Below are positions 15,741-51,442 of a stretch of DNA of 64,000 nucleotides, piece after piece. Numbering within the stretch: position 1 is the first letter of the stretch; every line of letters starts with the position of its first letter. This stretch comes from Inediibacterium massiliense. GTDB taxonomy: Bacteria > Bacillota > Clostridia > Peptostreptococcales > Thermotaleaceae. The stretch lies in assembly GCF_001282725.1 (NCBI RefSeq), contig NZ_LN876586.1, forward strand, positions 707,009-771,008. The letters are read 5' to 3'. The notes under the pieces are model-generated. The model searched no databases. It saw nothing but the letters and a program-made list of their open reading frames with translations, and was not told the DNA's origin. The translations under genes were made by a program, and so were the position numbers.

Positions 15741-17408
15741 ATGAAATTTAGTGGATTTGAGTATGAAAGACCAGATATAAAAAATTATGAAGAAAAATTT
15801 AATCATCTACTACAAAAATTTTGTGATGGACAAAGTTTTGAGGAAGAGGATCAATTATTACAGGAGATCAATTTATTAAGAAATGAATTTGAAAGTATGA
15901 AAACTATTGTTTATATTCGTCACTGTATAGATACGAAGGATTCTTTTTATAAAGAGGAACAAAATTTTTTTGATCAATATACTCCTATTTATGAAAATTT
16001 AATTTCACAGTATTATAAAGCTTTGACAAAATCCAAATATAAAAATGATTTAGAAAAGAAATGGGGAAGTCAGCTTTTTAAAATTGCTCACATGAAAAAG
16101 AATGTAGTATCTTTTCTGATTTTAAAAGATTTAAATATTGAAAATAATCTCATGAGTGAGTATACAACTCTATTGTCTTCAGCAAAAATATATTTTCAAG
16201 GAAAATATCATACTCTTCCTCAAATGAGATTATTTCAAATGGATATAGATAGAAATATAAGAAAGAAAGCTGTAGATAAAAAATATGATTTTTTTATGAA
16301 AAATGAAAAGCACTTTGATGAAATCTATGATGAATTGGTAAAAGTAAGAGATCAAATGGCTAAAAAAATAGGATATAAAAATTTTGTACAATTAGGATAT
16401 GATCGTATGATTAGAATAGATTATAATCAAGAGATGATTAAAAATTTAAGGGAGAATATTAAAAAATATATTGTTCCTTTAAGCTTAAAATTAAGAGAAG
16501 AACAAAGAAAAAAATTAAATTTAAATGAACTTTATTATTATGATGAACTCATTTATTTCAAAAAAGGAAATGCAAAATTAGAATTAAATCCAAATGAAAT
16601 TTTACATAAGGGACTAAAAATGTATGAAGACTTATCAGAGGAGACAAAATACTTTTTTGAACATATGATTAAAAATAATTTATTAGATGTATTGAGTAAA
16701 AGTGGGAAATCTCCAGCTGGATTTTGTACTTATATCAAACAATATAAAACGCCTTTTATTTTTGCAAATTTTAATGGGACAGCAGATGATATAGATGTAC
16801 TTACTCATGAGGCAGGCCATGCTCTTCAAATGTATTTAAGTAAAGATTATCTCATTTCTGAATACAACTTTCCAACTTTAGATGCTTGTGAAATTCATGC
16901 TATGAGTATGGAATTTTTCACATATCCTTATATGGATCATTTTTTTGAAAATGCAGATCAATATAGACAAGTTCATTTAAGGGAGTTTTTACACTTTATT
17001 CCTTATGGGGCATTAGTAGATGAGTTTCAACATCATATTTATGAAAACCCAAATATGTCTATAAAAGATAGAAAAGATCTATGGGCAAAATTAGAAAATG
17101 AATATATTCCTTATAGAAATTATGGAGAAAATGAGTATTTAAAAAGAGGCGGTTATTGGCATCAACAAGGACATATTTTTAAAAACCCATTTTATTATAT
17201 TGATTATATATTGGCAGGAATTTGTGCATTGCAATTTTTTATGCAAGCTAAAAAAGATTTTCAAAGTACATGGAAAAACTATATGAATGTATGTAAAACA
17301 GGAGGAAGCAAATCTTTTTTAGAGCTTGTGAATATAGGAAAAATAAAATCTCCATTTGAAGAGGATTGTATCAAAAATATGGTACAGGAAATACAAAAAC
17401 AAAATTAA
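15741..17408 (+). CDS. M3 family oligoendopeptidase (PepF-like)
   Basis: Cytoplasmic zinc metallopeptidase of 555 residues that trims oligopeptides. The HEXXH motif is in LTHEAGHALQMYLS (residues about 355), and the third zinc ligand is the Glu in DACEIHAMSMEFF about 25 residues on. The C-terminal helices end in FLELVNIGKIKSPFEEDC, as in M3 enzymes. The ATG at 15741 follows AGGAAGGTG. It lies just after the metT terminator, so it may have its own promoter or depend on read-through. Its own terminator is interrupted by a repeat element. Confidence 0.93.
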   Translation: MKFSGFEYERPDIKNYEEKFNHLLQKFCDGQSFEEEDQLLQEINLLRNEFESMKTIVYIRHCIDTKDSFYKEEQNFFDQYTPIYENLISQYYKALTKSKYKNDLEKKWGSQLFKIAHMKKNVVSFLILKDLNIENNLMSEYTTLLSSAKIYFQGKYHTLPQMRLFQMDIDRNIRKKAVDKKYDFFMKNEKHFDEIYDELVKVRDQMAKKIGYKNFVQLGYDRMIRIDYNQEMIKNLRENIKKYIVPLSLKLREEQRKKLNLNELYYYDELIYFKKGNAKLELNPNEILHKGLKMYEDLSEETKYFFEHMIKNNLLDVLSKSGKSPAGFCTYIKQYKTPFIFANFNGTADDIDVLTHEAGHALQMYLSKDYLISEYNFPTLDACEIHAMSMEFFTYPYMDHFFENADQYRQVHLREFLHFIPYGALVDEFQHHIYENPNMSIKDRKDLWAKLENEYIPYRNYGENEYLKRGGYWHQQGHIFKNPFYYIDYILAGICALQFFMQAKKDFQSTWKNYMNVCKTGGSKSFLELVNIGKIKSPFEEDCIKNMVQEIQKQN

Positions 17409-17426
17409 AAACCACCTTATGGGTGG

Positions 17427-17633
17427 ATAAGTTTGTAGACAAAGTCATAAAAAACGTCACTGATTTTCAAATTTGGAAAATATAAAGAAACGATCGAAAA
17501 TAGCATTACAAACTCGCTATGCTCAAACAGTGTAATGCTAAGCATTTTCTTACTTATTCTATATTTTCATAAATTCTCAATAAATGTTCCTAATTTCTAT
17601 GACTTTGTTACAATATACTTTGTCAACATTCTG
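17427..17633. mobile_element. MITE-like element, copy 1 (207 bp), inside a terminator
   Basis: Non-coding element nearly identical to the copy at 51153-51357. The ends carry imperfect inverted repeats: TTTGTAGACAAAGTCATA near the left end, and TATGACTTTGT followed by ACTTTGTCAAC at the right end. The middle contains a hairpin, AGCATTACA / TGTAATGCT. It is flanked by a 16-base direct repeat, ACCACCTTATGGGTGG, at 17411-17426 and 17634-17649, which is itself a hairpin. This looks like a target-site duplication of the M3 peptidase gene's terminator. It has no ORF. An IS1182-type parent is plausible, since that family is known to enter palindromes with long duplications, but none is present here. 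Confidence 0.85.
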
Positions 17634-17655
17634 ACCACCTTATGGGTGGTTTTTT
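17634..17655 (+). terminator. Intrinsic terminator of M3 peptidase gene, displaced
   Basis: ACCACC / GGTGGT hairpin with TTTTTT. The matching hairpin at 17411-17426 lost its T-run when the repeat element was inserted. Confidence 0.8.
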
Positions 17656-17955
17656 AGTTTCTTACGATATCATACTGTATGTAAATAGTTTTACATAAAT
17701 GGAATAAACTATATTCATATATAAAAAATATATATGAATATAAGAATATATTTTATATGAATTTAAAAAATTAAAGAGAATAAATTTAAATAATAAAGAA
17801 AAAAGGAAGCAATTTATGGTACAAAGAAGAAAAGCTTTAAAAGATAGATATAATCTGTTAATATCGAAATATATAGATTAAATTAGCTGTTATAGAGGTA
17901 TATAATAAGAAAAAGAATAAAAATTATATGGATAAAGGGGAGGGATGTGTATCTT
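17656..17955. other. AT-rich leader region ahead of DUF1576 gene
   Basis: No confident gene. An inverted repeat, ATATTCATATATA / TATATATGAATAT, lies at 17711-17741 without a T-run and could be an operator. A 21-codon ORF starts at about 17817 but has a weak site, and I do not call it. Confidence 0.35.
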
Positions 17956-51085: not shown

Positions 51086-51152
51086 AAAATCACCCAATCT
51101 TAATGTTAAAGTTAATGTAAAAGTTTATATATGAAAGTATTTAGAAAGTACT

Positions 51153-51357
51153 GAGTTTGTAGACAAAGTCATAAAAAACGTCACTGATTTTCAAATTTGG
51201 AAAATATGAAGAAACGATTGAAAATAGCATTACAAACTCGCTATGCTCAAACAGTGTAATGCTAATGATTTTCTCACTTATTCTATATTTTCACAAATTC
51301 TCAATAAATGTTCCTAATTTTTATGACTTTGCTAAAATATAGTTTGTCAGCAGACTG
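51153..51357. mobile_element. MITE-like element, copy 2 (205 bp)
   Basis: Almost the same sequence as 17427-17633, in the same orientation, differing at only a handful of positions. It is flanked by 17-base direct repeats (AGTATTTAGAAAGTACT at 51136-51152 and AGTACTTAGAAAGTACT at 51358-51374); the right copy is a perfect palindrome with a 3-base loop. The element is non-coding, with imperfect inverted ends and an internal AGCATTACA/TGTAATGCT hairpin. Low divergence from copy 1 suggests recent movement. Confidence 0.85.
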
Positions 51358-51442
51358 AGTACTTAGAAAGTACTTACTTATAGTATACAATATTTTTGAA
51401 CAATTAAAAATATTTTTTCTTTCCAAAAAAATATTTAAATAA

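Follow-up and report, generated by a model that had tools for sequence, protein, structure and literature searches.

Putative IS1182-type MITEs between duplicated hairpins in Inediibacterium massiliense

The element behind the oligoendopeptidase gene and its copies

The window analysed in this study, a stretch of 64,000 nucleotides of the Inediibacterium massiliense genome, carries on its plus strand at 15741..17408 the gene of an M3 family oligoendopeptidase (NCBIfam TIGR02289, 587.6 bits; a Pfam scan of the protein returned no family). The terminator at the 3′ end of this gene appears to have been the target of a small mobile element. By repeat and terminator scans the 16-nt hairpin sequence ACCACCTTATGGGTGG is found in two identical copies at positions 17411–17426 and 17634–17649, with a start-to-start distance of 223 nt, and the interval between them (17427–17633, plus strand) is 207 nt long. 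This agrees with the initial annotation, in which two exact copies of a 16-base hairpin were described on both sides of a 207-base element. The match to the left end of the family begins at position 17429 (AAGTTTGTAGACAAAG), so that the element proper measures about 205 nt. Besides the hairpin pair, the region 17300–17760 contains two further direct repeats, both of them imperfect (77% and 92%).

Alignment of the copies and comparison with the ends of insertion sequences place the left terminal inverted repeat at 17429–17444 on the plus strand, its common form in the family being GAGYTTGTAGACAAAG. The right terminal inverted repeat (17617–17633, minus strand; alignment and end pattern) reads CAGAATGTTGACAAAGT in inward direction, and this end differs from the family consensus CAGACTGTTGACAAACT by one mismatch in 15 positions. 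A repeat search gave in addition an inner inverted repeat spanning 17439–17608 with the arms ACAAAGTCATAAAAA at 17439–17453 and 17594–17608, and an internal stem–loop TAGCATTACA...TGTAATGCTA at 17501–17540 (arms 17501–17510 and 17531–17540), which the pattern search and the alignment show to be well conserved in the family. No open reading frame of at least 80 amino acids overlaps the element. The internal hairpin, the terminal repeats and the missing coding capacity noted from the letters alone are thus all recovered. An identity of the element as 6A RNA was considered and rejected, as the Rfam match is weak (21.8 bits versus a gathering score of 41.2, E 0.13).

It had also been claimed that only the right hairpin copy keeps its T-run. 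This is correct for the plus strand, where the right copy is followed by TTTTTT and forms a terminator-like structure at 17633–17651, but the left copy has retained a T-run on the opposite strand and is terminator-like at 17426–17412 (minus strand). In total two terminator-like structures were found at this copy versus a mean of 0.1 in shuffled sequences. It looks as if the original terminator had been bidirectional and the insertion had left one tail with each hairpin copy. For the annotation of terminators this matters, as two hairpins that enclose a small repeat downstream of a gene can be the scar of an insertion. The genome copy search found the element once more in the window, at 51153–51357 on the plus strand (contig coordinates C13:758162-758366), and the flank comparison at this locus (L003) gave its left hairpin AGTATTTAGAAAGTACT at 51136–51152 and its right hairpin AGTACTTAGAAAGTACT at 51358–51374.

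The whole genome comprises 3,497,276 bases in 14 contigs, and the unit has many copies in it. With the whole unit as query at least 41 matches were obtained (40 scored of 230 candidates). The pattern of the internal hairpin, with up to three mismatches allowed, is present at 79 places and the reversed pattern, used as control, at none. All 79 hairpin-bearing copies were retrieved and aligned. In the common form of the family the left end is GAGYTTGTAGACAAAGTCATAAAAAACGTCACT and the right end TTTTTATGACTTTGCTAAAATATAGTTTGTCAACAGTCTGA, with the outermost bases being less uniform. The pattern of the right end occurs at 43 places, 16 of which are more than 300 nt away from any of the 79 copies; these separate right ends belong mostly to variants, fragments, and copies with internal deletions. 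In a few cases the element is reduced to about 33–100 bp and still lies between hairpin copies (e.g., L108, L112, and L115). The element is short, non-coding, and multicopy and has terminal inverted repeats, as is characteristic of a MITE. No two element cores are identical, the best pair reaching 98.8%, and thus nothing indicates recent movement of the MITE. At L064 (C11:37574-37935) two MITE copies stand in tandem with one end in common.

When 40 genomes were searched with the element (up to 20 candidates scored in each), five matched, and whole-element matches among these were confined to the own genome and a second genome from this genus (G001). The matches in the three other genomes (L082–L084) are stretches of 28–44 nt in which neither the ends nor the internal hairpin are seen, and we regard them as chance.

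Duplicated flanks and orthologous sites

Of the 79 copies, 70 have a left and a right end that could be identified; the flank comparison covers these and excludes the other nine. With a local alignment score of 14 between left and right flank as threshold, the flanks are duplicated in 43 of the 70 copies, as compared to one of 1500 flank pairs taken from different copies. The 43 right-hand duplicates are 43 different sequences with a length of 16–35 nt (median 23 nt; at least 21 nt in 33 of them), and left and right duplicates are identical in ten cases. The remaining 27 copies are below the threshold; some of them are decayed and some are interrupted by an intron in the left end, and at L023, L026, L056, and L071 the flanks are still alike by eye.

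Of the 70 right flanks, 44 have a stem score of 10 or more, versus 6 of 271 windows taken 120–350 nt further downstream and 3 of 210 shuffled sequences. On the left side 31 of the 70 flanks reach this score, and among the 43 duplicated flanks 29 have such a strong stem. The stem score is below 8 in eight of the 43 (L013, L014, L021, L022, L038, L064, L069, and L076), so that a minority of the targets were weak palindromes or none. The assumption of a duplicated hairpin at every copy therefore has to be narrowed: 43 of 70 copies have duplicated flanks, 29 of them with a strong stem and eight with little or no stem, and 27 are below the threshold. As a side observation, strong stems survive on the right side in more copies than on the left, as if one of the copies drifts after the insertion.

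T-runs and A-runs beside the hairpin were surveyed at 45 sites with a flank score of at least 13. Only a T-run is found at 12, only an A-run at 9, both at 14, and neither at 10 sites, the latter ten being not terminator-like by this measure. That the element always has the same orientation towards the terminator was considered as well, and it is rejected as these counts show no bias. The stem finder used in this survey chose incorrect stems in a small number of AT-rich flanks (e.g., L018 left and L026 left); the hairpin statistics rest on the stem scores.

For the comparison of orthologous sites 735 kb were available, namely stretches of the genome G001 and a contig (L079) of Anaerophilus nitritogenes strain MJB2. 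Both flanks were found for 17 copies, 16 of them against G001 and the window copy against L079, and the states of the sites were judged by eye. At ten sites, all in G001, the element is absent and one hairpin is present (L006, L016, L019, L023, L027, L037, L046, L048, L056, and L077). Four sites lack the element and have nothing that corresponds to the hairpin (the window copy, L005, L030, and L071), two sites carry the element in both genomes (L053 and L042), and the site of L031 is too rearranged to be called. Two hairpins without the element were found at none of the 17 sites. The clearest pair is L019, where AGTTACTACAAATAAGTAGTAACT is present once in G001 and flanks the element on both sides in the own genome, one of the two copies with slight changes. 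At L023, L027, L048, L056, and L077 the left hairpin copy of the own genome is decayed or missing. The idea that an empty site should not already carry both hairpins, put forward in the initial annotation, is thus confirmed by ten sites with one hairpin and by none with two, but the window copy itself does not contribute: as its site in A. nitritogenes lacks both hairpin and element, it is not a before-and-after pair.

These comparisons show one hairpin before and two hairpins after the insertion, with the hairpin sequences at different sites being unrelated; the complete IS1182 elements of relatives described below behave likewise. They would provide a set of natural before-and-after pairs for a transposition reaction in which the target is selected by its secondary structure and this structure is copied in full. 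At one shared intergenic site (L042 in the own genome, L202 in G001) the MITE is found in opposite orientations. This is perhaps an inversion, possibly between the palindromic flanks, or the result of two separate insertions.

The repeat could also be mainly a host feature today, serving as a spacer or as structured RNA between two terminators, whatever its origin. The strand of the window copy folds far better than its own shuffles (z −5.46, with the palindromic flanks included) and the internal hairpin is well conserved. On the contrary, a mobile inverted-repeat element yields the same fold energy and palindromy anyway, and the internal deletions, the opposite orientation at L042/L202, and the absence of the element at 14 of the 17 compared sister sites all argue against a common function. 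We therefore consider a present host function unlikely, although individual copies may have one.

Relation to IS1182-family elements and the mode of insertion

The NCBIfam profile of the IS1182 transposase (NF033551) matched 44 of 78 genomes, 15 of them above the cut-off, and gave no match in the own genome and none in G001. An autonomous partner in the same genome, which is usual for a MITE though not obligatory, was thus not found with this profile. A complete parent element in the own genome was rejected as a candidate on this ground and also since no long coding element lies within about 480 nt before each of the 16 separate right ends. In view of this negative result for the own genome, the relation to this family rests on elements of relatives.

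Among the 30 IS1182 loci returned, the ends of the elements were examined at 20. Five of these (L126, L127, L128, L129, and L142) have long inverted repeats which span a terminator-like hairpin, with an end of the type CAGACTGT[T/A]GACAAAG. At L130 and L140 a similar end lies beside a hairpin, the second flank being unreadable or not found. The left and right hairpins of L126–L129, four loci selected on the ground that a hairpin lay within their inverted repeats, are direct duplicates when written on one strand. In the genome G008, which is from the same bacterial family and includes L142, duplicated hairpins are present at five of the six copies of one insertion sequence, each with a different sequence, and the sixth copy (L187) has unlike flanks. 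Such ends are not present at L191–L193. Other IS1182 elements have different ends, and L132, L136, and L137 have short duplications of 7–9 bp.

The consensus of the right end of the MITE, CAGACTGTTGACAAA, is identical to the end of L142 over 15 nt and adjoins a duplicated hairpin in both cases, where the first C may in L142 belong to the hairpin. The left end of the MITE, TTGTAGACAAAGTC, matches an end of L126 at 13 of 14 positions. The transposases of L126–L129, L140, and L142 form a cluster in an unrooted tree with a support of 0.956 including and 1.000 excluding L142; L130 (100 aa) and L138 (46 aa) were poorly extracted and their positions in the tree carry no meaning. The MITE is assigned to this clade since its right end equals that of L142 over these 15 nt and stands at the same place beside the hairpin. 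In the group of L126, L127, L128, L129, and L142, as in the MITE, the end CAGACTGT[T/A]GACAAAG or one closely similar adjoins the hairpin and the whole hairpin is duplicated, with a different hairpin for each copy. The elements differ in that L126–L129 encode a transposase of 451–477 aa, whereas the MITE of about 205 bp is non-coding. The type of target duplication is the same on both sides, i.e., in 43 of 70 MITE copies, in L126–L129, and in five of six copies in G008. In L142 (1440–1560, G008) the transposase lies in two overlapping frames with a break at nine A followed by G; this two-piece pattern recurs at the other copies in G008 and possibly reflects programmed frameshifting.

These results support the earlier proposal of a non-autonomous relative of IS1182, with ends in common with complete, hairpin-duplicating IS1182 elements of relatives. 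The initial annotation had looked to IS1182-type elements of the same strain and of relatives for this comparison; it is the relatives whose ends match, as no complete IS1182 element was found in the own strain. The most suitable name for the element is IS1182-type MITE with duplication of the whole target hairpin, and we infer that it was mobilised in trans by an IS1182 transposase. The transposase might instead come from a different family which likewise produces long palindromic duplications, the likeness to the IS1182 ends then being convergent. The IS1182 transposase was not found in the two genomes of the genus, and the comparison between MITE and insertion sequence covers the ends alone, as this explanation would allow. 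It would nevertheless have to account for 15 identical terminal nucleotides of the consensus at the same place beside a duplicated hairpin in an insertion sequence of the same bacterial family, and for the same mode of insertion, and we regard it as slightly more improbable still than a present host function.

We suggest, with a probability of roughly 0.9, that a single clade of IS1182-family transposases moves, or formerly moved, the MITE family and that its palindromic target is perceived by structure. The transposase would recognise a palindrome, often the stem–loop of an intrinsic terminator, through its structure rather than its sequence, as suggested by the diversity of the hairpin sequences. 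The target may be met as a cruciform or as a single-stranded hairpin. The repair of two long gaps would then copy the entire hairpin, the strand chemistry of this step being conjectural, and one hairpin would become two of 16–35 bp, one on each side of the element.

The hairpin pairs themselves could have arisen in another way. Two hairpins may have pre-existed as a tandem terminator, and the repeat may have come to lie between them by chance or by recombination; hairpins are indeed frequent behind genes and 27 of 70 copies are without clear duplication. This is very improbable in view of the flanks of one and the same copy being alike in 43 of 70 cases versus one of 1500 pairs across copies, and of the one hairpin, never two, at ten of the 17 orthologous sites. 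That the hairpins, which in most copies lie directly at the terminal repeats, are part of the ends of the element and travel along with it can be dismissed, as the 43 duplicated flanks have 43 different sequences and the hairpin is present at sister sites free of the element.

For some members of the IS1182 family ISfinder gives long, variable direct repeats. The MITE insertions can be compared with those of IS1272 (IS1182 family), for which two groups describe that hairpins are targeted and removed without duplication (PMC4923244, PMC5678879). According to these descriptions IS1272/TnSha1, like the MITE, targets hairpins which are often terminators and shows little sequence preference, but it deletes the target hairpin whereas the MITE duplicates it. 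Replacement of the hairpin as with IS1272 is not what is found here, as one hairpin is present at empty sites and two are present around the element. Palindromic target duplication, which had been taken as known for the IS1182 family, is therefore a trait of L126–L129 and of most copies in G008, but it does not extend to IS1272, nor to L132, L136, and L137 with their short duplications. In Fig. 13 of PMC5678879 a pathway b is drawn as a possible alternative, in which the 3′ ends are linked to the 5′ feet of the stem and the stem–loop is duplicated; the copies described here look like what this alternative route, as drawn there, predicts. Deletion versus duplication of the hairpin within one transposase family can be tested by comparing the two transposase clades.

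Short non-autonomous elements are also described for ISMac2 (IS1182) in Methanosarcina acetivorans, with MITEs of 160 and 169 bp in 14 and 7 copies (PMC3852290). The columns given there as 26/4 and 25/0 we read as inverted/direct repeats; the passages on these MITEs mention no hairpin duplication, and the paper does not contain the word terminator. A search by title and abstract, with most subscription journals and the ISfinder pages outside its range, returned no description of hairpin duplications around a MITE. The MITE as such is of a known kind, and within that range we found no worked-out description of an insertion mode which duplicates the whole hairpin.

A group II intron and a second repeat in the MITE

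A group II intron of about 1,914 bp is present in at least six copies in the own genome (40 of 63 candidates scored), at C14:1585748, C11:142785, C13:15356, C13:946080, C14:1508338, and C14:280556 (L176–L181), and all six lie inside a MITE. The insertion site is in all of them the same base of the left end of the MITE, after TT[G/A]TAGACA and about 12–13 nt behind the left hairpin or palindrome. The RNA of the two copies searched matches RF00029 with 54.5 bits. The encoded protein is a reverse transcriptase/maturase (TIGR04416, 426.4 bits) with the domains RVT_1 and GIIM and without an endonuclease domain; the nearest solved structure is the GsI-IIC reverse transcriptase, with a second intron reverse transcriptase being nearly equal (202 versus 191.5 bits).

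The intron segments compared differ at 0–1 of 1918 positions, whereas the surrounding MITE cores differ by about 4–17%. This contrast suggests that the intron entered MITEs which were already in place. In five of the six copies the same hairpin or palindrome is seen by eye on both sides beyond the intron, the exception being L057/L181. The orthologous site of L057 in G001 (L090) appears, as judged by eye from the right flank, to hold a MITE without intron.

Introns of group IIC are described in a review (PMC4424553) as inserting at intrinsic terminator motifs and as lacking an endonuclease domain. Like these, the intron in the MITE stands behind a terminator-like hairpin, in six of six copies, and encodes only RVT_1 and GIIM; its ribozyme match is to RF00029 only. 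It differs from the introns covered there in that its six copies share exon sequence derived from the MITE and not the hairpin alone. The insertion of group IIC introns at terminators, as outlined in the review, fits an intron site that would be composed of the duplicated hairpin and the end of the MITE.

With somewhat better than even confidence we therefore propose a stack of elements. By copying hairpins the MITE would create a composite site of hairpin and left end, which is the only home of the intron found in the genome, and a transposon would thus multiply the sites of a retroelement, both of them reading the hairpin and not the sequence. In the same proposal the MITE and its IS1182 clade would be the natural hairpin-duplicating counterpart of IS1272, and the group II intron would be spreading through the genome on copies of the MITE.

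Another repeat, whose core is GGCGCCAACGAAATC...GATTTCCGTTGCTTA, is found at 28 places in the own genome (up to three mismatches). An Rfam search with L020, L030, L035, and L078 gave no match above the gathering score. As a separate unit of about 140 nt the repeat is present at L006, L020, L049, L120, and L124, and it occurs within MITE variants at L030, L032, L035, L038, L040, L078, L106, and L121–L123. In longer MITE variants a part of it is built in, adjoining either end.
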